DNA of 64,000 nt from Halanaerobium salsuginis (GTDB lineage Bacteria; Bacillota; Halanaerobiia; Halanaerobiales; Halanaerobiaceae), in the NCBI RefSeq assembly GCF_900114545.1, contig NZ_FOTI01000003.1, positions 62,001-126,000 on the forward strand, given 5' to 3'. Both the position numbers and the translations under genes were made by a program. Under the pieces are notes generated by a model that was given only the letters and a program-made list of their open reading frames with translations, had not been told where the DNA came from and did not search any database. Below are positions 32,885 through 57,241 of the stretch, piece by piece; within the stretch, counting starts at the first letter, position 1; each line of letters opens with the position of its first letter.

Positions 32885-34708
32885 GTGGAAAGTAAATTTA
32901 CTTATTTGGATAAATTAAATAATCTTGTTGCTAAAGATATTATGGATATTCAAATGCTTATTATAAATAAAAATACAAATTTATCTGATGCGGTATTTTT
33001 AATGTTAAAAAATGATGTACAAGATGCCATTGTTGCAAATGATAACCAGATTTTTGGCTTAATTACTATCCATGATATTGCCAAGATTTTTAATATGGCA
33101 GAGCGAGAAAAGTTGCTACAGAAAAAGGTAAGCTGCTTTATGCAAAAAGATGTCGTTACAGTGCAATCTACAACTAAGGCGATTGATGCTAAAAATATAA
33201 TGAAAGCAAGAAAAATTGGTCGATTACCTGTTTTAGAAGATGATAATTTAATAGGTATAATTAGAATTAAGGATATTATTAATAAATTATATGATGTGAT
33301 TTCGGCTATGAATGATAATTTTGTTAATATTTTAAACTCAATTCATGAAGCTATTTGTATAGTTGACAAAGATTCTAATGTAGTGATGTGGGATCAGCAG
33401 GCAGAAAAGCTCTATGGAATTAAGTCAGCAGATATTATAAATCAGAGTTTGAAAGACTTTTTCCCCACCGCTCTTATCCATCAGGTTATGAAAAAAAGAG
33501 AACCTATAGAAAATGTCTGTCATAGTCCTAAAGAGGGAACTTATGCAATAATTAGTGCAATGCCACTTTTTATTGACGATGAATTTGTAGGAGCTGTTTC
33601 TACAGATAGAAATATAACTGAAATAACTAATTTGACTTCTGAGTTAGAAGAAACTAAAGATAAACTTCATTATTTAGAACAGGAAGTAAAAAAAATAAGT
33701 GATGCTAATTATTCTTTTAATAAGATTTTAGGTAATAGCAATATTATGAAAGAAAAAATAGCAAGAGCCCAAAAAGTTGCTGTAACTAATGTAAATATCT
33801 TAATTACTGGACAGAGTGGAACTGGAAAAGAGCTTTTTGCTAGGGCTATCCACCAGGCTAGTAAAAGAGAGGGTCCATTGGTCGCTGTTAATTGCAGTGC
33901 AATTCCAGAGAATCTTTTTGAAAGTGAAATGTTTGGTTATGTTAGTGGTGCATTCACTGGTGCTTCTAAAAAGGGAAAAGCAGGTTACTTTGAGTTAGCC
34001 AACCATGGGACACTATTTTTAGATGAAATTGGTGATATGCCAATGTTTATGCAATCTAAATTACTACGTGTGTTACAGGAAAATAAAATAAAAAGAGTTG
34101 GTGCAGAAAAAGATATTGAAGTTGATGTCAGAATAATTTCTGCTACTAATCGTGCATTAGAAACAATGATTGAAAATGAAAAATTTAGAGAAGACCTTTT
34201 TTATCGAATCAATGTAATTAAAATTGAATTACCCGGACTAAGAGAGCGTAAAGAAGATATTCCAATCTTAGTGAGACATTTCATTCATCAATTTTGTCAA
34301 CAAAATCAATTGAAAATACCTAAATTAGAACCAGAAGTCTTAACTTTATTAATGGGCTATAAATGGAAAGGCAATATTAGAGAGCTCCAGAATACTGTTG
34401 AAAACTTAGTCGTATTTTCTCAAGAAGGAGAAATTAGAGCTGATAGTTTGCCACAAAAGATAATTGAAAATCAACTTAATGATAAGATTATGGAGCTAGA
34501 ATTTCTAAAAGATAGGAAATCAATAAATTATCAGGATGAACTTGATCTTGACTTAAATGAGATAATATCTGAAATAGAAATTAAAACTATTAAAAAAGCC
34601 CTTGCTATAACTAAGGGCAATAAAAAGCAGGCTGCTCGTTTGCTAAAAATACCGCGTAGTACACTTTATTATAAAATTAAATACTATGATTTAACTGAAT
34701 TAATGTAA
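32885..34708 (+). CDS. prdR: PrdR, sigma-54-dependent activator of the proline reductase operon
   Basis: The 607-residue enhancer-binding protein has two CBS repeats (about 12-135), a PAS domain (about 140-250, ILNSIHEAICIVDKDSNVVMW) and a short coiled coil. The AAA+ domain (about 278-510) has Walker A GQSGTGKELFARA, the sigma-54-contacting GAFTGA loop and DEIGDMP. A Fis-type helix-turn-helix closes the protein (NKKQAARLLKIPRSTLYYKI). GTG start with TTGGAGGAAAT upstream. In Clostridioides difficile PrdR activates prd genes in response to proline. The same layout and position before prdC support this name. Its likely target promoter is at 35122. Confidence 0.88.
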   Translation: MESKFTYLDKLNNLVAKDIMDIQMLIINKNTNLSDAVFLMLKNDVQDAIVANDNQIFGLITIHDIAKIFNMAEREKLLQKKVSCFMQKDVVTVQSTTKAIDAKNIMKARKIGRLPVLEDDNLIGIIRIKDIINKLYDVISAMNDNFVNILNSIHEAICIVDKDSNVVMWDQQAEKLYGIKSADIINQSLKDFFPTALIHQVMKKREPIENVCHSPKEGTYAIISAMPLFIDDEFVGAVSTDRNITEITNLTSELEETKDKLHYLEQEVKKISDANYSFNKILGNSNIMKEKIARAQKVAVTNVNILITGQSGTGKELFARAIHQASKREGPLVAVNCSAIPENLFESEMFGYVSGAFTGASKKGKAGYFELANHGTLFLDEIGDMPMFMQSKLLRVLQENKIKRVGAEKDIEVDVRIISATNRALETMIENEKFREDLFYRINVIKIELPGLRERKEDIPILVRHFIHQFCQQNQLKIPKLEPEVLTLLMGYKWKGNIRELQNTVENLVVFSQEGEIRADSLPQKIIENQLNDKIMELEFLKDRKSINYQDELDLDLNEIISEIEIKTIKKALAITKGNKKQAARLLKIPRSTLYYKIKYYDLTELM

Positions 34709-34758
34709 ATTAATTTTAGTTTTTTTAAGAAAAGATAAATAATTCACATAAAATTTAT

Positions 34759-34787
34759 TTGACATTTTAATAAGACAAGTTTATAAT
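34759..34787 (+). promoter_or_regulatory. Full-consensus sigma-A promoter in the prdR-prdC gap
   Basis: TTGACA (34759-34764), 17 bases, TATAAT (34782-34787): all twelve consensus positions and ideal spacing. It is about 50 bases after the prdR stop and is followed within 90 bases by a terminator-like hairpin, not a gene. Confidence 0.75.
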
Positions 34788-34793
34788 AAAAAT

Positions 34794-34877
34794 AAGAAAA
34801 AATTATATAAAATCTTTCAAATAACCTTATGTTGGTGAATTGACATGTGTCAGTTTTCTGACAATGAGGTTTTTTTA
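34794..34877 (+). ncRNA. Candidate small RNA or terminated leader of about 84 nt
   Basis: Predicted transcript from the consensus promoter at 34759-34787. It ends at a structure in which ACCTTAT (34824-34830) pairs with ATGAGGT (34864-34870) around an inner TGTCAG-TTTT-CTGACA hairpin (34848-34863), followed by a run of T residues. No start codon with a ribosome-binding site opens a useful frame inside it. It could act in trans, or it could be a leader from which some transcripts read through toward prdC. Both ends are predictions. Confidence 0.4.
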
Positions 34878-34943
34878 TTTTCTAAATGCTTCAAAACAAC
34901 GTTGAACTTGATTTCCAATTTTTAAATTATAAAAATATATTTT

Positions 34944-34973
34944 AAAACCGTCAGCTTACTGACGGTTTTTTTT
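34944..34973 (+). terminator. Intrinsic terminator upstream of the prd operon
   Basis: AAACCGTCAG-CTTA-CTGACGGTTT followed by more T residues. It would stop read-through from prdR and from the consensus promoter before the sigma-54 promoter. The dyad GTCAG-CTTA-CTGAC resembles the upstream hairpin at 34849-34862, so it may also be a protein-binding site. Confidence 0.8.
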
Positions 34974-35121
34974 ATTTGTTAACAAATTAGTTAAGTTCAG
35001 AGCTAGTTTAAAGCTATTTTAAAATAATTTTAAAACAAAAAAGCAAATTTTTACTATATAATTAGCCTAAAAACAAAAAAAAAGAGAGATCAAATACTTT
35101 TTTTAAGTAAATTTGAATTTG

Positions 35122-35137
35122 TGGTATGAAAATTGCA
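35122..35137 (+). promoter_or_regulatory. Sigma-54 promoter of the prd operon
   Basis: TGGTATGAAAATTGCA carries the invariant GG (35123-35124) and GC (35135-35136) separated by exactly ten bases, close to the TGGCAC-N5-TTGCA consensus. It lies 57 bases before the prdC start. The adjacent prdR encodes a sigma-54 activator, which supports it strongly. Confidence 0.85.
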
Positions 35138-35193
35138 TATTAAACATAGTGAGTAATAACACAAGTGTAAATTTTCAAGGAGGTGAATGAAAA

Positions 35194-36477
35194 GTGAGTG
35201 TAGTAATTTTATTAAAACAGCATATTGGATCAACATGTAAAGCAGTTGTTGAAAAAGGTGAAGAAGTTAAACGGGGACAATTAATTGGAAAACCTGTTGG
35301 TCTGGGTGCTAATATTCATGCAAGTGTTTCTGGTAAGATTACTGAAGTTACTGATTCATTTATTAAAATATCAGAGTCTGGAGAACAGACTACAGATTAT
35401 ATTAAGATAAAAAAATCAGATAATAAGTTAGCAATGATTGAAGAAGCTGGGATTGTTGGTGCTGGTGGTGCTGGTTTTCCTACTCATGTGAAATTGAATA
35501 TAGATTTGACTGGAGGCTGTGTAATTGCAAATGCAGTAGAATGTGAGCCTGTATTAGCCCATAATATTGAGTTAATAGAAAAATCACCAGAATTAGTCAT
35601 TAAAGGACTAAAATATATTAAAGAAATTACAAATGCTGATCATTGTTATATAGCAATTAAAACTAAATATAAAAAGGCTGTAAAAGAGCTCAAAAAAGCA
35701 TTATATTTAGAAAATGATATAAAATTAAAAATTTTACCTGATATGTATCCTGCTGGTGATGAAAGAGTTATTGTTAGAGAAATATTGGGAATTGAGTTGG
35801 AGCCAGGTCAATTGCCGAGTGCAGCTAAAGCTGTAATTCAAAATGTTGAAACTCTTAAAAATATAGTTAGAGCAATTGAAGAAAGAAAACCAGTAATAAC
35901 AAAAGATTTTACTGTGGCAGGGAGAGTTAAAAATGCTAAAACAGGTCAGGTTTTTTTGGATGTTCCAATTGGAGAACCTGTGAGTAAATATATTGATCTA
36001 TGTGGTGGATATCTTGAACCACATGGAGAAATAGTACTCGGTGGTCCATTTACTGGTCGACCAGGCAATGAGGATTCAGTAGTTAATAAAACAACTGGTG
36101 GTATTTTAGTTGCCATGCCTTTTCCAGAAGAAAAACGCAAAATTGGTCTACTAGCATGCGAATGTGGTGGTCAAGAAGCCCGATTAAGAGAAATAGCCAC
36201 TCAAATGGGAGCGGAAATAGTTGCAGTAGATAGATGTAAGCGAATGGTTGAAGTAAATGGTCGATATAGATGTGATAAACCAGGTGTTTGTCCTGGCCAG
36301 GCAGAGAAAGTACTGAAGTTAAAAAATAAAGGAATGCAGGTCTTATTAACAGGTACTTGTGGTGACTGAACTAATACAGTCATGAATGTAGCTCCTCGGG
36401 TAGGAGTTCCCACGTATCATAGCACAGATCATGTTCTTAGGGCAATAGGCCATAAATTAATTAGAAAAACAGACTAG
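35194..36477 (+). CDS. prdC: PrdC, selenocysteine-containing electron-transfer protein of proline reductase
   Basis: RnfC-like protein thought to pass electrons to D-proline reductase. The N-terminal barrel-sandwich region (about 1-75) has IGKPVGLGANIHASVSGKI. The SLBB/RnfC core has EEAGIVGAGGAGFPTHVKL. The cysteine-rich C-terminal part contains LLACECGGQ, VDRCKRM and VCPGQAEKV. The reading frame meets TGA at 36367-36369 in TGTCGD-U-TNTVMN and continues to TAG at 36475-36477, giving 427 residues with Sec at 392. A SECIS-like hairpin follows. A stop at this TGA would remove 36 residues with good coding character. The start codon is GTG behind AAGGAGGTG. Confidence 0.9.
36390..36408 (+). promoter_or_regulatory. 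SECIS-like hairpin of prdC
   Basis: AGCTCCT (36390-36396) pairs with AGGAGTT (36402-36408; one G-T pair) around the loop CGGGT. It begins 20 bases after the Sec TGA, within the spacing expected of bacterial SECIS elements. Confidence 0.6.
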
Positions 36478-36500
36478 AGAAAGAATAAGGAGGGATTTAA

Positions 36501-38447
36501 ATGTCGATTACTAACGAAACAGCACAGGAACATATAAATGATTTAGCAGTTTTATGTTGTCGAACAGAGGAAGGAACTATTTTAGCTCCAAGTAATCTAG
36601 AAGATCCAAATATTTTGCCTGATTTAGAAGATTCAGGTTTATTAGAAATTCCATCAGATAATTTAAAGATAGGAGAAGTTTTAGGGGCTAAGTTGTTAAA
36701 AACAGTAGATTCATTGACTCCTTTAACACCAGACTTATTGGAAGGTATTAAAGAGTTAACAGCTGAAAGTGAAAGCGAAGAAGATCAAGACAATAAGAAT
36801 CAACAGAAAAAGATATCTGAGCAGAGTAGTTCGGCTGATAATTTAGTTGAAGATCAAATTAAGTCAAAACAAACTACTAGTAATTTTAGTAATGGTATTG
36901 TTAAAATTCATATTGGTGAAGGTAAAGATATAAATCTCGAAATTCCTATTGGTCTATCAGGAGTTAATGCAGGAGAAAATACAATTGTTAACTCTAACGA
37001 TGGAGCAGAACATAGTTTGCAATCAGAAAAAGTTGAAAGTCCTGCAGAAGAATCATTAACAAAGGAAATTAATGAGGATAAAAAAATTAGATCTTTAACT
37101 AAAAAACATTTCCAGATTGATGAAGTAGAAATTGGGGATGAAACTAAGATAGAAGGAACTACTCTCTATTTAAGGGAAAACATTTGTCAAGATGCAGTAG
37201 GAGCAGATGATTTAGTTTGTTCAATCAAGTTTGATATCATAACTCCTGCTGATTATGATAAATACAGTGAAACTATAATGGATGTTCAACCTATAGCTAC
37301 CAAAGAAGAAGATTGCAACCTTGGAGAAGGTGTAACTCGTGTTTTAGATGGGGTAGTAATTGTAGTTACCGGAACTGATGAAACAGGAGTTCAAATTGGT
37401 GAATTTGGTTCTTCAGAAGGTATTCTAGAAAGAAATATTATGTGGAACCGCCCTGGCGCACCGGATAAAGGTGAAATTTTTATTAAAACAGAAGTAATAA
37501 TTAAAGAAAAAACTAATATGGAAAGACCTGGTCCTTTAGCAGCTCATAAAGCTAGTGACTTTATCACTCAAGAAATCCGAAACGCTTTAAAAGAAGTTGA
37601 TGATAGTTTAGTTACTAAAGAAGAAGAACTTACTCAATATAGAAGACCAGCCAAGAAAAAGGTTGTAATTATCAAAGAAATTATGGGACAGGGTGCAATG
37701 CATGATAATATAATTTTACCCATAGAACCAGTTGGTATATTAGGTGGGGAACCTAATGTTGATTTGGGTAATGTACCACTTGTTTTATCTCCACTTGAGG
37801 TCTTAGATGGTGGCATCCATGCTTTGACTTGTATTGGACCTGCCTCTAAAGAAACTTCTCGTCATTATTGGAGAGAACCTTTAGTAAAAGAAATTATGGC
37901 TGATGATGAGCTTGATCTAGCAGGGATAGTTTTTGTTGGATCTCCACAGGCAAATTCGGAAAAATTTTATGTTTCAAAAAGACTTGGTATGTTAGTTGAA
38001 ACAATGGATGTTGATGGTGCATTTATTACTACAGAAGGATTTGGGAATAATCATATTGACTTTGCTAGTCACCATGAGCAAGTTGGTATGCGAGGAGTAC
38101 CTGTGGTAGGAATGTCTTTCTGTGCTGAGCAGGGTGCTTTAGTAGTTGGAAATAAATATATGAAATATATGATTGATAATAATAAGTCAGAGCAAGGAAT
38201 TGAAAATGAGATACTTTCTAATAATACTCTTTGCCCAGAAGATGCTGTGAGAGCAGCGGCAATGCTAAAGGCTGCTATGTTTGGTGCAGATGTTAAAGAG
38301 GCAGAAAGACATTTTAATCACCATGTAAAAGATAAAAATATTGACTTGATTGAAGAAGAAACTACTCGGGAAGTTGAGCTTGTACCAAATGAGCAAATCT
38401 TACCTAAAAGTAAAAAACGTCAAGAAATTTATGATACTGATGAATAA
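36501..38447 (+). CDS. prdA: D-proline reductase proprotein PrdA
   Basis: Pyruvoyl-containing subunit precursor of D-proline reductase, which converts D-proline to 5-aminovalerate. The proprotein cleaves at a cysteine that becomes the pyruvoyl group. Here the expected site is Thr443-Cys444 in HALTCIGPASKETSRHY. The N-terminal part (about 1-90) and the core from about 205 are well conserved. Residues about 92-205 form an acidic, Ser/Asn-rich low-complexity linker. The 648-residue length is close to known PrdA. ATG start behind AAGGAGGG, 23 bases after prdC. The paralogous pair prdD/prdE downstream corresponds to its two cleaved halves. Confidence 0.92.
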   Translation: MSITNETAQEHINDLAVLCCRTEEGTILAPSNLEDPNILPDLEDSGLLEIPSDNLKIGEVLGAKLLKTVDSLTPLTPDLLEGIKELTAESESEEDQDNKNQQKKISEQSSSADNLVEDQIKSKQTTSNFSNGIVKIHIGEGKDINLEIPIGLSGVNAGENTIVNSNDGAEHSLQSEKVESPAEESLTKEINEDKKIRSLTKKHFQIDEVEIGDETKIEGTTLYLRENICQDAVGADDLVCSIKFDIITPADYDKYSETIMDVQPIATKEEDCNLGEGVTRVLDGVVIVVTGTDETGVQIGEFGSSEGILERNIMWNRPGAPDKGEIFIKTEVIIKEKTNMERPGPLAAHKASDFITQEIRNALKEVDDSLVTKEEELTQYRRPAKKKVVIIKEIMGQGAMHDNIILPIEPVGILGGEPNVDLGNVPLVLSPLEVLDGGIHALTCIGPASKETSRHYWREPLVKEIMADDELDLAGIVFVGSPQANSEKFYVSKRLGMLVETMDVDGAFITTEGFGNNHIDFASHHEQVGMRGVPVVGMSFCAEQGALVVGNKYMKYMIDNNKSEQGIENEILSNNTLCPEDAVRAAAMLKAAMFGADVKEAERHFNHHVKDKNIDLIEEETTREVELVPNEQILPKSKKRQEIYDTDE

Positions 38448-38715
38448 AAGAGACATTGACGCTAAAATGAAATATGGTGACAGCATTATCAAAATGGAAG
38501 GCATTATTGTTGAAGTTGAAGATGGTGCTGTTGCAGTAGATTTCAAGGGACGACTAGGTTATTTAAAGGTTCCCAAGAGAATGATAATTTGTGATTATCC
38601 TCTTAAAGTGGGTCAGGAAGTTGGTCTTAAGATGAGTTTTCTTGAAGTTTTAAGTCCTGAAGTTAATGAAAAATATATTAGCAATCTTGCTAAAAAGGAA
38701 ATAAAGGGAGGCTGA
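38440..38715 (+). CDS. CBO2463/CBO2479-type small protein of the prd cluster
   Basis: A 91-residue protein in the gap between prdA and prdB, as seen in other prd clusters. The ATG at 38440 overlaps the end of prdA by eight bases and gives MNKRDIDAKMKYGDSI. ATG 38428 is an in-frame alternative, and neither has a strong ribosome-binding site, suggesting coupling. The core GIIVEVEDGAVAVDFKGRLG looks like a small beta-barrel fold, with VPKRMIICDYPLKVGQEVGL following. Function is unknown. Its place between the two catalytic subunits suggests assembly, maturation or structural support of the reductase. Confidence 0.7.
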   Translation: MNKRDIDAKMKYGDSIIKMEGIIVEVEDGAVAVDFKGRLGYLKVPKRMIICDYPLKVGQEVGLKMSFLEVLSPEVNEKYISNLAKKEIKGG

Positions 38716-38721
38716 ATAAAG

Positions 38722-39450
38722 ATGACTAAAATGACAGTTGTTAATGGATTACAATCTGAAATATATGTACCAATTACACCAAAGCCTGTCTGGGCCCAGG
38801 TAGAAAAAGAATTAAAAGAAATGCGAGTAGCATTAGCTACTGCAGCAGGAGTTCATTTGAAAACAGATAAGAGATTTAATCTAGCAGGTGATTTTACTTT
38901 TCGCAAGATACCTGGAGATACTCCAACTAATGAATTGATGGTATCGCACGGTGGTTATGATCAGGCTGATGTTAATAAAGATATCAATTGTATGTTTCCA
39001 ATTGATAGGTTGAGAGAATTAGCGGAAAGTGGCTTTATCAAAGAAGTTGCACCAACTCATATAGGATTTATGGGTGGTGGAGGTGACCAGAAAAAATTTA
39101 ATGAATATACTGGTCCAGAAGTCGCAAAAATTTTGAAAGAAGAACAAGTTGATGCTGTATTATTAACAGCTGGCTGAGGTACCTGTCACCGCTCTGCCGT
39201 GATTGTGCAGAGAGCGATTGAAAGTGCTGGTATTCCGACTATTATAATTGCCGCTTTACCTCCTGTTGTAAGACAGAGTGGTTCACCAAGAGCAGTTGCT
39301 CCAATTGTTCCAATGGGTGCAAACGCTGGTGAACCTAATAATATAGAAATGCAGACTGGGATTATTAAGGATACTTTGGAACAGCTTATCCAAATTCCAA
39401 GTGCTGGTAAAATAGTTAGTTTAAATTATGAATATAATGCAGAAGTTTAA
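38722..39450 (+). CDS. prdB: PrdB, selenocysteine subunit of D-proline reductase
   Basis: Catalytic subunit carrying the selenol that attacks D-proline. The frame from ATG 38722 (AAAGGGAGG upstream) meets TGA at 39175-39177 in AVLLTAG-U-GTCHRSAV and continues to TAA at 39448-39450. This gives 242 residues with Sec at 152, the position known in Acetoanaerobium sticklandii PrdB. The motif G-U-GTCHR is shared with glycine/betaine reductase GrdB-type proteins. A hairpin suitable as SECIS follows the codon. The downstream part (IVQRAIESAGIPTIII, SPRAVAPIVPMGANAGEPN) is clearly the same protein, not a separate gene. Confidence 0.93.
39190..39216 (+). promoter_or_regulatory. SECIS-like hairpin of prdB
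   Basis: CGCTCTGC (39190-39197) pairs with GCAGAGAGCG (39207-39216) with a two-base bulge, loop CGTGATTGT. It starts 12 bases after the Sec TGA. Confidence 0.6.
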
Positions 39451-39471
39451 GTTTTAAATTTAGGTGGATAT

Positions 39472-39544
39472 AAACTCTGTTCTTTTCATTTTATTCTAAT
39501 ATATTCTAGCTTAATATTAAGTTTTAAAGTTTAGAACAGAGTTT
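39472..39544 (+). repeat. 12-bp inverted repeat in the prdB-prdD gap
   Basis: AAACTCTGTTCT (39472-39483) and AGAACAGAGTTT (39533-39544) are exact reverse complements, 49 bases apart. The AT-rich loop contains the smaller palindrome CTTAATATTAAG. In RNA this would form a long hairpin between the Sec gene and prdD. There is no T-run after it, so it is not a classic terminator. Confidence 0.6.
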
Positions 39545-39564
39545 TACTGCTTAAGTTAATTGAG

Positions 39565-40335
39565 GTGGAAATTATTAAAAAATCAGAAAAAATAAGCAGT
39601 TTAATTATTAATTCTTTTCATATTAAAGATGTTGTTTTAGCAGATAAGTTTAAAATTGACAGAAATATTCTTAGTATTTCAACTAAAAATATTAGTAACT
39701 TAATTGCTGAAGAAAAGTTAGTAAGTAATATTGATTTAAAAATAATTAAGCCTAATAACCATAATCTTCAAATTAATACAATTATGGATATTATACCGAT
39801 TTCCACCAAAGTTTTAGGAGAAATTGGTGAAGGAATAACTTATACTTTAACAGGCGTTTATTTTATGTTAACTGGAATTGATAAATCTGGAAGGCAAATA
39901 TCTGATTTTGGTTCATCAGCTGGTTTGTTAAAAGATAAAATTTATTTTGGTAGAGCTGGTACTCCATCTCAAAAAGATTTTATAATTTCTTTTAACGTTA
40001 CTTTAGCAAGTGGATCAGCAATTAATCGTTCTGGCCCCATTGCAATTCATCGAGTTTGTGATCAATATATACAACTAATTCGTAATGTACTGAAAAATCT
40101 TTCTGCCAATAAAAGTGATGAAAAACACATATTTCATGATAAACGAACTCCTTCTAAAAAAAGGGTGGCAATTATCAAACAGGTCGCAGGTCAAGGAACA
40201 ATGTATGATAATTTATTATTTCCAGACGAACCCTCAGGTTTTAAAGGTGGCAAGTCAATTATTGATCTCGGAAATATGCCAGTTATATTAACTCCAAATG
40301 AATACAGAGATGGAGCTTTACATGCGATGACGTAG
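39565..40335 (+). CDS. prdD: PrdD, homologue of the N-terminal half of PrdA
   Basis: The 256-residue protein aligns with the PrdA beta part: STKVLGEIGEGITYTLTGVYFML against ATKEEDCNLGEGVTRVLDGV in PrdA, INRSGPIAIHRVCDQ against MERPGPLAAHKASD, and the end IDLGNMPVILTPNEYRDGALHAMT against VDLGNVPLVLSPLEVLDGGIHALT. It stops exactly where PrdA has its scissile Thr-Cys. Its role in the reductase complex is not established. The GTG at 39565 lies inside the ribosome-binding site GAGGTGG, so the true start may be ATT 39574. The TAG stop is followed by a short gap to prdE. Confidence 0.82.
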   Translation: MEIIKKSEKISSLIINSFHIKDVVLADKFKIDRNILSISTKNISNLIAEEKLVSNIDLKIIKPNNHNLQINTIMDIIPISTKVLGEIGEGITYTLTGVYFMLTGIDKSGRQISDFGSSAGLLKDKIYFGRAGTPSQKDFIISFNVTLASGSAINRSGPIAIHRVCDQYIQLIRNVLKNLSANKSDEKHIFHDKRTPSKKRVAIIKQVAGQGTMYDNLLFPDEPSGFKGGKSIIDLGNMPVILTPNEYRDGALHAMT

Positions 40336-40360
40336 AACTTTATTTCGGGGGGGGATTAAA

Positions 40361-40822
40361 ATGGGCATCGGCCCTTCAACTAAAGAAACAACTTTACATC
40401 ATTTTAGAGATCCTTTATTAAATGTTGTAGATGCTGACCAAGATGTTGAAATAGTAGCTGTAATTATTGCTGGAACACCTCAAGATAACAAGAGTAAAGA
40501 ATTCATAAGCAAAAGGACAGCAAATTGTCTAGAAGCTATGCGAGTTGATGGAGCAATTATTTCTAGTGACGGCTGGGGTAATAGTGATCTTGATTTTGTA
40601 AATACAATTGGTGAAGTAGGCAAAAAAAAGATTCCAATAGTGGGCTTAAATTTTATTGGTACTCAAGCTGAATTTGTAGTTACAAACCAATACATGGATA
40701 CTATTGTTGATTTTAATAAGTCAGATGCAGGTATAGAAACTGAAGTTGTTGGTGAAAATAATGTCATTGAGCTCGATGCCAGAAAAGCACTTGCATTTTT
40801 AAAATTAAAAATGAGAAAATAA
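40361..40822 (+). CDS. prdE: PrdE, homologue of the C-terminal half of PrdA
   Basis: The 153-residue protein begins MGIGPSTKETTLHHFRDPL, matching PrdA CIGPASKETSRHYWREPL just after its cleavage site. The pyruvoyl-forming Cys is replaced by Gly, so it cannot form the cofactor in the same way. Further matches are VIIAGTPQ, EAMRVDGAIISSDGWGNSDLDF and VGLNFIGTQAEFVV. ATG start after a GGGGGGGG tract that serves as ribosome-binding site. It lies 25 bases after prdD in another frame. Prd clusters elsewhere carry the same small subunit-like protein; an accessory or regulatory subunit is likely. Confidence 0.82.
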   Translation: MGIGPSTKETTLHHFRDPLLNVVDADQDVEIVAVIIAGTPQDNKSKEFISKRTANCLEAMRVDGAIISSDGWGNSDLDFVNTIGEVGKKKIPIVGLNFIGTQAEFVVTNQYMDTIVDFNKSDAGIETEVVGENNVIELDARKALAFLKLKMRK

Positions 40823-40864
40823 AAATCTAACTAAAGTATTTTAAATTATATAGGGAGGTAAATT

Positions 40865-41869
40865 ATGAATTTTATTAAAAGTATTCAAGCTGTTGATTCT
40901 CATACAATGGGAGAACCGACCAGAATTATAACTGGTGGTGTACCAAAAGTACCAGGTAAAAATATGGCTGAAAAAAAAGCATATCTAGCAGAACATCTAG
41001 ATAATATTCGAACTACAGTAATGTTTGAACCACGCGGTCACAATGATATGTTTGGTTCCATTATTCTTCCTCCGACTACTGAAGAAGCAGACTTAGGTAT
41101 TGTGTTTATGGATGGTGGTGGTTATCTAAATATGTGCGGCCACGGTAGTATTGGAGCAGCTACAGTTGCAGTTGAGACAGGAATGGTAGAGGTAAAAGAA
41201 CCTTATACAGAGGTTATTTTAGAGGCTCCAGCTGGTTTAATTAAAGCTCGGGTAGAAGTTAAAAATGGTAAAGCTAAATCTGTTTCTATAGTTAACGTTA
41301 ATTCTTTTGTTTATCAAGAAAACCTAGAAATTGAGGTGCCAGAAATTGGGCCAATAAAATTAGATATTTCTTTTGGAGGTAGTTTCTTTGCTATAGTTAA
41401 TGCCAAAGATCTTGGCATTCAAGTTAATCATGCTAATAGTGATCAATTAAAAAAGATTGGAATTCAAATCCGGGATATTGTAAATGAAACAATTAAAGTT
41501 GAGCACCCTGAAAAAAAATATATAAATACGGTTGACTTAGTAGAAATTTATGATGATCCATCTAACCCAGCTGCTGATAAGAAAAATGCAGTTATTTTTG
41601 GGCAGGGTCAACTTGACCGTTCTCCTTGTGGAACAGGAACTAGTGCTAAACTAGCTACTTTATATAAAAAGGGCCTGCTAAAAGAAAATGAAGAGTTTGT
41701 TTATGAAAGTATAACTGGAACAATGTTTAAAGGAAAGATAATAGCTTTAGCTAAAGTAGGAAACTTTGAGGCTGTTGTACCTGAAATAACTGCTAATGCC
41801 TATATAACTGGTTTTAATCAGTTTGTAATTGATCCTGAAGATCCTTTGCAATATGGATTTTGTTTATAG
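40865..41869 (+). CDS. prdF: Proline racemase
   Basis: Interconverts L- and D-proline, feeding D-proline reductase. The two catalytic cysteines are Cys91 in LNMCGHGSIG and Cys255 in DRSPCGTGTSAK. N-terminal IQAVDSHTMGEPTRII and FEPRGHNDMFGSI are also characteristic. The length of 334 residues is the same as the Clostridioides difficile and Acetoanaerobium enzymes. The start is ATG behind AGGGAGGTA. It closes the core prd set. Confidence 0.94.
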   Translation: MNFIKSIQAVDSHTMGEPTRIITGGVPKVPGKNMAEKKAYLAEHLDNIRTTVMFEPRGHNDMFGSIILPPTTEEADLGIVFMDGGGYLNMCGHGSIGAATVAVETGMVEVKEPYTEVILEAPAGLIKARVEVKNGKAKSVSIVNVNSFVYQENLEIEVPEIGPIKLDISFGGSFFAIVNAKDLGIQVNHANSDQLKKIGIQIRDIVNETIKVEHPEKKYINTVDLVEIYDDPSNPAADKKNAVIFGQGQLDRSPCGTGTSAKLATLYKKGLLKENEEFVYESITGTMFKGKIIALAKVGNFEAVVPEITANAYITGFNQFVIDPEDPLQYGFCL

Positions 41870-41923
41870 TAGTTATTTTTTAAATAAAACACTAATAAAT
41901 AGTATTTAAGAGGAGTGAATAAT

Positions 41924-42781
41924 TTGATTAATATTTTATTGGGTATGTTAGCCTTGTTGGGAAGTTGGTTTAGTGTTGAATTGGCTAGAGATACAGTTAA
42001 AAATCATAATAATATGGAAGCTAAAACAGATTGGATTAAATCAGGATTAATTGGATTTACTACTAATTTTTTTGATACACTTGGTATTGGTAGTTTTGCT
42101 CCCACAACTGCTTTGCTGAGAGGCTTTAAACAAATTAGTGACCGTGTTTTACCAGGTACTTTAAATGTTTCCTGTTCTATCCCTGTAATTATTGAGGCAT
42201 TTATTTTTATTTCTGTAATTGAGGTTGCTCCACTTACATTATTTAGTATGTTAGCTGCAGCAACAGTGGGAGCCTGGATTGGAGCAGGGGTTGTTTCAGA
42301 TTTACCTGAAAAAAAAGTTCAATATGGAATGTCGTTTGCTTTGTTTATTACTGCTTTTTTAATGATTGCTGGTCAACTGGGATGGATGCCAGTTGGCGGT
42401 GAGGCAGTAGGTTTAAGTGGGATAAAGTTAATGATTGCAATTGGTGCTAATTTTGTTTTGGGAGCTTTAATGACAGTTGGAATTGGGCTTTATGCACCCT
42501 GTATGGCTTTAATTTACATGTTAGGTATGAGTGCCCGGGTTGCTTTTCCTATTATGATGGGTTCCTGTGCGTTTTTAATGCCTGTTGCTTCAGTTAAGTT
42601 TATTAAAGAAGGTGCTTATAATCGTAAAGCTTCTCTGGCAGTCTCTATTGGAGGGGCAATTGGGGTTTTTATTGCAGCTTATATAGTAAAAACATTGCCA
42701 CTGAACATTTTAACTTGGTTAGTAATCTGTGTAATTTTCTACACTTCAATTACAATGTTTAGAGCTGCATCTAATAAGTAG
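41924..42781 (+). CDS. TSUP/TauE-SafE family membrane transporter
   Basis: The 285-residue protein has about eight hydrophobic helices and a repeated layout. Conserved stretches include IGFTTNFFDTLGIGSFAPTTAL and GIGLYAPCMALIYMLGM. Family members move sulfonates, sulfite or other organic anions. The TTG at 41924 is chosen because AGAGGAGTG lies seven bases upstream and overlaps the in-frame GTG at 41915. It follows prdF by 54 bases without a terminator and is probably the last gene of the prd transcript. The substrate is unknown; export of a proline-reduction product or uptake of a sulfur/selenium anion are both possible. Confidence 0.78.
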   Translation: MINILLGMLALLGSWFSVELARDTVKNHNNMEAKTDWIKSGLIGFTTNFFDTLGIGSFAPTTALLRGFKQISDRVLPGTLNVSCSIPVIIEAFIFISVIEVAPLTLFSMLAAATVGAWIGAGVVSDLPEKKVQYGMSFALFITAFLMIAGQLGWMPVGGEAVGLSGIKLMIAIGANFVLGALMTVGIGLYAPCMALIYMLGMSARVAFPIMMGSCAFLMPVASVKFIKEGAYNRKASLAVSIGGAIGVFIAAYIVKTLPLNILTWLVICVIFYTSITMFRAASNK

Positions 42782-42862
42782 TTGCTTCTTATCATTAAAA
42801 ACAGAAGAAATAATTTAAGTTAGCTTAAAAATATGAGTAATTTACTCTAAATAATTTGTTTT

Positions 42863-42919
42863 GGCAGGAGAAGATAAGATTACTCTATCAGAGTGCCATT
42901 TATCTCTTTTGCCTTTTTT
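42863..42919 (+). terminator. Large bulged terminator closing the prd operon
   Basis: GGCAGGAGA-A-GATAA (from 42863) pairs with TTATCTCTTTTGCC (to 42913) with a one-base bulge. An inner ACTCT-ATC-AGAGT hairpin sits at the top, and six T residues follow. Confidence 0.7.
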
Positions 42920-42937
42920 GAAAATGAATATTATAAT
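42909..42937 (+). promoter_or_regulatory. Possible sigma-A promoter of the NSS transporter
   Basis: TTGCCT (42909-42914), 17 bases, TATAAT (42932-42937). The -35 overlaps the tail of the preceding terminator. Confidence 0.45.
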
Positions 42938-42984
42938 TATAATAGTTTTAAATTTCACATATAGTTAAGGAGGTTTGATTAGCG

Positions 42985-44415
42985 ATTAAGAATGAACAAT
43001 GGTCTAGCCGGTGGGGCTTTATTGCAGCAGCAATTGGTATGGCAGCTGGGACAGGTAATATATGGCGTTTTCCTCGAGTGGCAGTTCAAAATGGAGGAGG
43101 TAGTTTTATTATTGCCTGGCTAGTAGCACTCTTTGTTTGGTCCATTCCTTTATTAATTGCTGAGATGGTAATTGGTAAGAAAACACGATTAGGTACAATT
43201 AAAGCATTTACCCAAATGGGAGCTAGCAAGTATAGTAAATTTTTTGGTAGCTGGATTACATGGGTTTGCATTGCAATTATGTCATATTATTCTGTTGTTA
43301 TGGGCTGGACAATTAAATATTTTATTTTGAGTTTAACTAATAATTTAACAACTAATACTAGTTTTATCTGGTCAACTTTTATTAATTCTCCAAATCAGAC
43401 AATTTCTTTTCATTTTTTAGCAGTATTGTTATGTGTATTTGTAGTTTATAAAGGAATAACAAATGGGATTGAAAAAGTTACTAAATTTTTAATACCAACT
43501 TTGTTTATAATTTTGATAGTTTGTGCAGTTAGAGCACTTTTGTTACCAAACTCAATCAAAGGAATAAATTACTTATTTACTTTTAAATTGCAAGAATTAT
43601 TAAATCCTAAGCTATGGTTAGAGGCATTTACTCAATCTGCCTGGTCAACAGGTGCTGGTTGGGGATTTATTATAACTTATGCAATTTATACTAAAAAAAA
43701 TTCTGATATTGCAGTTAATTGTTTTATAACAGGTATTAGTAATAATTTAGTTTCAATAATTGCAGCTTTAGGTATAATACCAACCATATTTGCTCTTTCT
43801 TCTCAGCAAGCAGCAATGGAAGCTATTAATTCTAGTAATACTGGTTTAGCTTTTATTTATTATCCTAAGTTATTTCCGACTATGGTTGGCGGAAAATGGT
43901 TAGCAATACTTTTCTTTTTAGCAATGGTCATGGCATCTTTAACTTCAATAATAGCAATGTTTGAAGTGGCTGTTAAAAACTTAATGGATTATGGTGTTAG
44001 CAGAAAAAAAGCTGCAGTTATTACAGGTATAGTTGCCTTTTTATTAGGGCTCCCTTCAGCTTATAATATTGAAATTTTAAATAATCAGGATTTTGTTTGG
44101 GGGGTAGGTCTTTTAGTTAGTGGTTTATTTGTTAGTCTAACTATTATTAAATATGGTGCAGAAAAGATAAGAAATAATGAAATTAATACAGAATATAGTC
44201 AACTTTATATTGGTTCCTGGTGGACAAAGTTTATAAAATTGATCCCCATTATATTTATATTTATTTTTGGTTGGTGGATTTGGCAATCTATTATCTGGTA
44301 TCCAGGCAATTGGTGGAATCCTTTTGCAGTTTATAGTTTAGGTAGTATTATTTTTCAATTTATAATAGTTTATTTGTTGATTTTATTAATAAATAAACTT
44401 AAATTTATAAACTGA
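42985..44415 (+). CDS. Sodium-dependent symporter, NSS/SNF family
   Basis: Sodium-coupled amino-acid-type transporter with about 11-12 helices. The first helix carries the family signature WGFIAAAIGMAAGTGNIWRFPRVAVQNGGGSF. The first ATG in frame (43039) would remove most of helix 1. The frame is open upstream to a TGA at 42976, and a perfect AAGGAGG (42967-42973) precedes it. The only plausible start in that space is ATT at 42985, giving 476 residues. The substrate is unknown; the position after the prd genes makes proline or another Stickland amino acid likely. A 38-base palindrome follows. Confidence 0.8.
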   Translation: MKNEQWSSRWGFIAAAIGMAAGTGNIWRFPRVAVQNGGGSFIIAWLVALFVWSIPLLIAEMVIGKKTRLGTIKAFTQMGASKYSKFFGSWITWVCIAIMSYYSVVMGWTIKYFILSLTNNLTTNTSFIWSTFINSPNQTISFHFLAVLLCVFVVYKGITNGIEKVTKFLIPTLFIILIVCAVRALLLPNSIKGINYLFTFKLQELLNPKLWLEAFTQSAWSTGAGWGFIITYAIYTKKNSDIAVNCFITGISNNLVSIIAALGIIPTIFALSSQQAAMEAINSSNTGLAFIYYPKLFPTMVGGKWLAILFFLAMVMASLTSIIAMFEVAVKNLMDYGVSRKKAAVITGIVAFLLGLPSAYNIEILNNQDFVWGVGLLVSGLFVSLTIIKYGAEKIRNNEINTEYSQLYIGSWWTKFIKLIPIIFIFIFGWWIWQSIIWYPGNWWNPFAVYSLGSIIFQFIIVYLLILLINKLKFIN

Positions 44416-44424
44416 CTAATTAAT

Positions 44425-44462
44425 CAAATGATATATTGGTAATATTACCAATATATCATTTG
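44425..44462. terminator. Perfect 38-base palindrome after the NSS transporter
   Basis: The left arm CAAATGATATATTGGTAAT is followed with no spacer by its exact reverse complement. It begins 10 bases after the transporter stop and is followed by AAATTTTG. It probably ends transcription or protects the 3' end, although the T-run is poor. Confidence 0.55.
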
Positions 44463-44583
44463 AAATTTTGCTTAAATAAAGTAGTTTTATATAGAAATCT
44501 TAGATTTAAAATGTTTTTTTATTTATCAAATAAGCAAAACTTATTCTTAAGATAAAAATTACTTATTACAGGAGTGAAAAACA

Positions 44584-45852
44584 ATGGCAAAACATTATGA
44601 AATGTGGGAAAAACTGGGCCTTGACTTAGAAAAACATGATCAATTTTTAAATCCAGTTCCAGAATTATTTACTGAAATATTTATTAAACAAGATAACCGA
44701 CCAGAAGGTATGGACTATTATGATTTTGTAGTTGGAGATATTCATGGAGTAAGAGTTAAAGAATTAGTTGCAGAAAAAGATAAAGGGAATCCAGTTATTT
44801 CTTCTTTTTGTGCTTTTGTACCAGATGAATTAATCATAGCTGCTGGTGGGGCAAGTATTGGGCTATGTGCTGGAGCTCAATTTCCTATTCCAAGAGCTGA
44901 ATTAGAATTACCAAATGATATCTGCCCTTTAATTAAATCATCAGTTGGTTTTAAATTAGAAAGAGTTTGTCCTTATTTTGAAGTATCAGATTTTGTAGTT
45001 GGTGAAACAACTTGTGATGGTAAAAAGAAAGCCTGGGAATTTTTAAATGAACATATTTCTACTTATGTAATGGAATTACCTAACACTAAATCTGCATCTG
45101 GCCATCAACTTTGGCAGTCAGAAATTGAAAGGTTTAAACTTGAAATAGAGGAGCGTAGCGGCCGTAAAATAACTACTGAAAAATTAGCTGAAGCAATTAA
45201 GTTAGTTAATAAAAAAAGATCTGTATTAGAAAGGCTTTATAATACCAGAAAAGCTAATCCGGCTCCAATTAGTGGTAGAGACACTCTTCTAATAACACAA
45301 TTAGCTTTTTTTGATGATCCAGCTAGATTCATTGAAAAAACAGAAAAACTTTGTGAAGAATTAGAAGCAAGAATAGCCAATAAACAAGGCGTTGTCAATT
45401 CTGAAGCACCTCGTATTTTGATTGCTGGAACACCAATGCCATTACCAAGTTGGAAATTACATTCTATTATTGAGTCTAATGGTGGTGTAGTAGTTTGTGA
45501 AGAAACTTGTACAGGAACTAGATATTTTGAGTCTAAAGTAGCAGAAAATGGACAAAATTTGGCTGAACAATTAGTTAACTTATCAGAGCGTGCAATGAAT
45601 ATCAATTGTGCCTGCTTTACTCCAAATGAAGCTAGAGTTGATGATATTTTGCGACTTGCTAATGAATATAATGTTGATGGAGTTATTTACTATAATTTGC
45701 AATTTTGTCAGACATATAATATGGAATACAATAAAGTTGCAGATGCTTTAAAAAAGGCTGATATTCCTGTTACTCAAATTGAAAGTGATTTTAGTGAAAA
45801 TGATAGTGGACAATTAAATACTAGGATTCAAGCATTTTTGGAGATGCTGTAG
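44584..45852 (+). CDS. Double-cubane-cluster-type reductase (HgdB/2-hydroxyacyl-CoA dehydratase D-like), copy 1
   Basis: The 422-residue protein of the COG1775 fold has two cluster-binding lobes. Conserved cysteine contexts in order: SSFCAFVPDE, NDICPLIKSS, RVCPYFEVSD, TTCDGKKKAW, VCEETCTGTRY, NINCACFTPN and LQFCQTYNMEY. The CPLIKSS-CPYF-CDGKKK set and a second CEETC lobe are the pattern of stand-alone double-cubane proteins, which receive low-potential electrons from an ATP-dependent activase. One activase gene lies at 52877. The substrate is not known. The start is ATG behind ACAGGAGTG. It heads a same-strand series of redox and transport genes. Confidence 0.82.
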   Translation: MAKHYEMWEKLGLDLEKHDQFLNPVPELFTEIFIKQDNRPEGMDYYDFVVGDIHGVRVKELVAEKDKGNPVISSFCAFVPDELIIAAGGASIGLCAGAQFPIPRAELELPNDICPLIKSSVGFKLERVCPYFEVSDFVVGETTCDGKKKAWEFLNEHISTYVMELPNTKSASGHQLWQSEIERFKLEIEERSGRKITTEKLAEAIKLVNKKRSVLERLYNTRKANPAPISGRDTLLITQLAFFDDPARFIEKTEKLCEELEARIANKQGVVNSEAPRILIAGTPMPLPSWKLHSIIESNGGVVVCEETCTGTRYFESKVAENGQNLAEQLVNLSERAMNINCACFTPNEARVDDILRLANEYNVDGVIYYNLQFCQTYNMEYNKVADALKKADIPVTQIESDFSENDSGQLNTRIQAFLEML

Positions 45853-57142: not shown

Positions 57143-57241
57143 GGGAATAGCTGTATCCATGGTGGATATCACGGACTTCAAATCCGATGGCAGGTAACTT
57201 TAGTTATCTGTGGTGGGTTCGATTCCCACATATTCCCGCCA
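57143..57241 (+). tRNA. selC: tRNA-Sec (anticodon TCA)
   Basis: The 99-nt gene includes an encoded CCA. Acceptor GGGAATA (57143-57149) pairs with TATTCCC (57231-57237). An eighth position, G57150 against A57230, would be a mismatch. The six-pair D stem GTATCC/GGATAT has a five-base loop. The anticodon arm CGGA-CTTCAAA-TCCG has TCA at 57178-57180. A long variable arm CAGGTAAC-TTTA-GTTATCTG (8 pairs) and the T arm GTGGG-TTCGATT-CCCAC follow. The long D stem, long variable arm and TCA anticodon identify it as the selenocysteine tRNA. It sits directly after selB. Confidence 0.95.

Follow-up and report, generated by a model that had tools for sequence, protein, structure and literature searches.

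The closest described system is the PrdR/sigma-54 regulon of the Clostridiales. In Nie et al. (2019, PMC6615313), the enhancer sites of PrdR (UAS) are inverted repeats of TGT and ACA, 10-12 bp apart, which occur in multiple copies before the prd genes, mostly 100-250 bp from the -24/-12 promoter. In C. difficile, a SigL promoter of prdC is assigned to PrdR (PMC7438776). A second system is the BmoR-dependent promoter P_BMO, where an inverted repeat lies upstream of a sigma-54 promoter. In PMC8899819, this repeat is discussed as a hairpin and possible enhancer-binding site, and its bases tune promoter output, while deletion of the hairpin gave activation similar to the wild type.

The locus studied here resembles the PrdR regulon in its regulator family and target genes, and in the multiple palindromic TGT-N10-ACA sites upstream of a -24/-12 promoter. 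It differs in the 18-bp pairing of two sites and in a stem that would also act as the prdR terminator, neither of which is mentioned in the available parts of PMC6615313 and PMC7438776; its genome also lies outside the genera listed there for PrdR. With P_BMO it shares an inverted repeat that precedes a sigma-54 promoter, but the regulator is a different one, and a terminator role is not mentioned in the portion of PMC8899819 at hand.

We analysed a window of 64,000 nucleotides (64 kb; the whole stretch of DNA under study) from Halanaerobium salsuginis (GTDB lineage Bacteria; Bacillota; Halanaerobiia; Halanaerobiales; Halanaerobiaceae; genome 2.99 Mb), assembly GCF_900114545.1, contig NZ_FOTI01000003.1, positions 62,001 to 126,000 of the forward strand. 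Its features of interest, in window coordinates, are as follows.

32885..34708, + strand: prdR, encoding a sigma-54-dependent activator (CBS-PAS-AAA+-Fis-type HTH; NCBIfam NF041552 TF_PrdR)
34759..34787, + strand: sigma-A-type promoter, TTGACA (34759-34764), 17-nt spacer, TATAAT (34782-34787), exact at 12/12 positions
34794..34877, + strand: RNA of about 84 nt predicted from anatomy and fold, consisting of an A-rich leader (about 29 nt) and a terminator hairpin
34823..34876, + strand: hairpin of the UAS pair followed by T7, at which prdR transcripts, and any from the sigma-A promoter, are predicted to end by intrinsic termination
34830..34845, no strand: first PrdR UAS-like palindrome, TGTTGGTGAATTGACA, with degenerate left half (2 mismatches; TGT and ACA kept)
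34848..34863, no strand: second PrdR UAS-like palindrome, TGTCAGTTTTCTGACA, exact
34944..34973, + strand: second terminator-like hairpin (34944-34969), an 11-bp stem, with T-run, enclosing the third palindrome
34949..34964, no strand: third PrdR UAS-like palindrome, CGTCAGCTTACTGACG, lying 101 bp beyond its predecessor (2 mismatches; CGT and ACG)
35122..35137, + strand: sigma-54 -24/-12 promoter of prdC, TGGTATGAAAATTGCA, with -24 box TGGTA rather than TGGCA
35194..36477, + strand: prdC, encoding the proline reductase-associated electron transfer protein (TIGR04481, 552.9 bits, cut-off 490)

The product of prdR scored 791.6 bits against NF041552 (E 3.6e-238; cut-off 795), and the next best family scored 337. 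The standard code truncates prdC at an in-frame TGA (36367-36369). This codon is probably read as selenocysteine, and PrdC is very likely a selenoprotein, because the tail that follows it, TNTVMNVAPRVGVPTYHSTDHVLRAIGHKLIRKTD (to 36477), matches the C-terminus of relatives. The window also holds a selenoprotein gene prdB (38722-39450; TIGR04483, 420 bits with its in-frame TGA taken as Sec) and a tRNA-Sec gene (57143-57237). No prdC was found in the 11 genomes of the same genus that were searched, and the nearest PrdC proteins, 72% identical, come from genomes of other orders; these two findings suggest that the prd cluster (32885-45852) was acquired by horizontal transfer.

The stem of the hairpin downstream of prdR reads TGTTGGTGAATTGACA-TG-TGTCAGTTTTCTGACA, i.e. 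two TGTCA-N6-TGACA palindromes whose centres are separated by 18 bp. The original prediction had noted neither these palindromes nor the second terminator-like hairpin nor the sigma-54 promoter. The UAS motif TGT-N10-12-ACA is represented by the exact copy at 34848-34863, which is the only exact TGTCA-N6-TGACA in the 2.99-Mb genome, and by the two copies with two mismatches. All three lie upstream of the sigma-54 promoter of prdC, and their centres are 284, 266 and 165 bp away from its -24 box. A search for further PrdR targets in this genome yielded no candidate, as the exact palindrome is absent elsewhere; copies with one mismatch were no commoner genome-wide than a control (48 vs 68).

We gathered the gaps between prdR and prdC in Clostridia and in genomes related to that of the window. 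Across 23 gaps (the window included) we counted 57 palindromes with at most two mismatches, against 3.8 expected from dinucleotide shuffles; conservation of the sites thus goes together with the prdR-prdC arrangement in these genomes. A -24/-12 promoter was present in all 23 scanned gaps. The full pair of palindromes occurred in 12 genomes, at a spacing of 18-20 bp. In nine of these, the second site was located 249-266 bp and the third site 137-165 bp before the -24 box, while the other three (L004, L038 and L089) deviated from these distances. In contrast, the distance from the prdR stop codon to the pair ranged from 12 to 196 bp in the 12 genomes, and from 16 to 196 bp in the nine genomes with fixed geometry. 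Judged by these distances, it is the sigma-54 promoter that sets the position of the pair and the third site, as expected of an enhancer, since the distance to this promoter is fixed in 9/12 genomes while that to the prdR stop varies. The taxonomically nearest examined genome with the operon (G013, same family) showed no more than dispersed GTCA half-sites, and its sigma-54 box is weak.

The same stretch also shows conservation at the RNA level. Downstream of the sigma-A-type promoter, the original prediction had reported a hairpin and T-run, and both are present: the hairpin spans about 34823-34872 and the T7 run 34870-34876. For the 84 nt at 34794-34877, the fold has an energy of -22.0 kcal/mol (z -4.1; 0/200 shuffles were as stable). 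The 12 palindrome pairs were aligned, and RNAalifold returned one long stem in which 10 of the 17 pairs were doubly changed at least once. In an 18-pair version of this stem, 90.7% of the cells were paired and 31 cells were doubly changed (i.e. compensatory), compared with 11.8 +/- 3.0 after shuffling (0/500); the covariation score of this alignment was 0.465, against 0.196 in shuffled alignments, and slid registers did not exceed 0.163. Because the genomes share ancestry, which the shuffle tests ignore, these counts do not represent independent events.

Such pairing might simply result, with no selection on the RNA, from the adjacency of two palindromes that serve as a DNA site for PrdR. Conservation does peak in the TGTCA and TGACA arms and in the sigma-54 geometry, and a single UAS is already self-complementary. 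Part of the stem pairing follows automatically from the two palindromes being neighbours, and repeats of this kind can stay complementary through template-switching repair even where selection is absent. However, the core bases and the pairs flanking the sites, which a reader of TGT-N10-ACA has no need to fix, covary as well. Between the two sites, the six variable core bases paired within genomes in 59 of 72 cases, against 42.9 +/- 3.3 when permuted between genomes. Among the core pairs outside Watson-Crick rules, 14 were G-U on the sense strand and four were A-C. On the sense side, a run of at least five T followed the stem in 8/12 genomes; on the antisense side this was so in 1/12. Moreover, in locus L090 the pair has been cut to one site, the other being missing relative to its relative L088, and a separate hairpin with T-run precedes the remaining site. 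We therefore regard an enhancer with an incidental RNA hairpin as improbable. A DNA-binding protein needs neither the covariation, nor the sense-strand G-U bias, nor the sense-side T-runs, and these features fit an intrinsic terminator of prdR. A stable stem with a T-run on the transcribed strand is found here, and the stem shows compensatory changes in the prdR orientation among relatives, although four of the 12 genomes are without a good T-run after it.

A covariance model built from the 12 genomes matched nine further prd loci outside its training set (L041, L043, L044, L046, L048, L049, L090, L092 and L094), in some of which the match overlaps the prdR stop codon, and matched none of seven unrelated rnfC loci. 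Within the window's own genome its best match was the prdR-prdC element (E 5.9e-9). A second match (C40:68722-68772) was taken as chance, being a GCTGAC...GTCAGC hairpin that lacks a sigma-54 box and is flanked by divergent genes.

Our preferred reading, which we hold with considerable confidence, is that the hairpin is a composite cis element, combining a PrdR enhancer pair with the intrinsic terminator of prdR. As DNA, the tandem pair and the third site 101 bp downstream would load PrdR, which would then loop to RNA polymerase-sigma-54 at 35122-35137; in this way proline, acting through PrdR and sigma-54, would turn on prdC and the prd operon. As RNA, the same sequence would fold into a hairpin with U-tract that ends the prdR transcript, so that read-through from prdR would not feed prdC. 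Points that speak against this reading are the two mismatches in each of the window's first and third palindromes, its TGGTA box, the four genomes that lack a good T-run and the half-sites of G013. What was presumed to be a small RNA would thereby become a cis element with two jobs, one as DNA enhancer and one as RNA terminator, and the sense-strand covariation is unusual for an enhancer. This reading predicts the binding positions of PrdR, and transcriptional insulation between prdR and prdC, in a wide set of proline-fermenting bacteria.

The sigma-A-type promoter requires a separate explanation. As the original prediction held, it is a perfect match (12/12) and the best in the window, where it is the sole exact consensus with a spacer of 16-18 nt. 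It also points at no gene, as no ORF of at least 50 aa with a ribosome site was found within 300 nt downstream. A chance match without activity is conceivable in AT-rich intergenic DNA, and shuffled windows contained 0.11 exact matches on average, with 11 of 100 shuffles holding one; the promoter is, moreover, not conserved. Against this, TTGACA-17-TATAAT occurs 44 times genome-wide, compared with three occurrences of a reversed-pattern control, which implies that most exact matches are not due to chance and that this promoter is probably active. Furthermore, 22 of the 30 exact promoters that were inspected precede an ORF within 300 nt, and of the eight others, two are located at tRNA genes, one before a T-box leader and one at tmRNA. 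An inactive chance match is hence an unlikely reading, albeit one with some weight.

Among the genomes compared, the promoter appears specific to this one: none of 24 other prdR-prdC gaps contained a match above 10/12, in a comparison that covers no close relative of the locus, the same-genus genomes being without prdC. Checking relatives' gaps, as had been proposed, thus gave a divided answer, in that the hairpin is kept in 12 genomes and covaries whereas the promoter is not kept. Under the composite reading, the promoter would be a later, lineage-specific addition between the prdR stop codon and the element. It would probably fire and yield a short terminated RNA, and polymerase crossing the sites from it may interfere slightly with the binding of PrdR.

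It is plausible that a short terminated transcript is made, because most perfect promoters in this genome stand before genes, and some of those without an ORF are found at tRNA, T-box and tmRNA. The prediction of an 84-nt RNA is supported to this extent (44 vs 3 promoters), but the conserved hairpin is explained by the UAS and the prdR terminator. Small RNAs derived from 3'UTRs have their own promoter between the stop codon and the terminator of a gene, and the short RNA ends in the shared terminator; the known ones have demonstrated transcripts and targets. The predicted RNA is alike in anatomy, although its promoter is not conserved. If made, it would be a 3'UTR-type by-product.

It had further been proposed that the promoter makes an abundant RNA of about 84 nt, which might control prd or competing Stickland pathways in trans. 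The perfect promoter from an enriched class, the lack of an ORF after it, the comparable orphan promoters at RNA genes and a hairpin-T7 that makes a good terminator all speak for such an RNA. However, the promoter is absent from the 24 other gaps, and most relatives have only 1-50 nt between the prdR stop and the stem, which leaves little or no room for a promoter. The stem is the sole conserved part, and it is already accounted for. In the alignment of the 12 genomes, which includes no close relative of this locus, only the stem aligned and no conserved RNA body was found outside it; the A-rich leader showed no visible conserved seed. The segment gave nothing credible in Rfam, whether at the gathering threshold or with E values of up to 10. 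The genome contains just one copy of it, which counts against a dedicated RNA and also rules out a repeat or mobile origin. We consider action in trans very unlikely, there being no evidence in its support. The remark that no small RNA had been described between prdR and prdC agrees with our search of open-access papers, which found none.

The alternative of an attenuated leader, in which the sigma-A promoter gives basal prdC transcription that is restrained by the hairpins at 34823-34876 and 34944-34973 and subject to regulated read-through, lacks evidence as well. The promoter, the two serial terminator-like hairpins and prdC are all co-directional. In the minimum-energy structure, however, both hairpins stay side by side and no antiterminator fold is formed; the promoter is not conserved, and the sigma-54 promoter intervenes between the second hairpin and prdC. 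We judge attenuation to be very unlikely indeed. Directly after the second hairpin, there is a perfect 14-bp palindrome, ATTTGTTAACAAAT (34973-34986), with Rex-like letters that fall short of the full Rex consensus.

A further elaboration of the composite element would be a switch, in which UAS-bound PrdR blocks or alters transcription across its own terminator, and constitutive transcription from the sigma-A promoter adjusts prd induction by crossing the enhancer. This would couple the short RNA to enhancer occupancy and to termination of prdR; we rate this as quite improbable. More generally, these results caution that a promoter, hairpin and T-run beside a regulator gene need not represent a small RNA.

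Three other perfect sigma-A promoters, at L055, L079 and L080 (genome G000), are followed by no Rfam family and, within 300 nt, by no ORF of at least 50 aa that has a ribosome site, and RNAs of an undescribed kind are possible there. At L081, CRISPR direct repeats (CRISPR-DR7; 1040-1371) lie beside a tRNA that carries a perfect consensus promoter.
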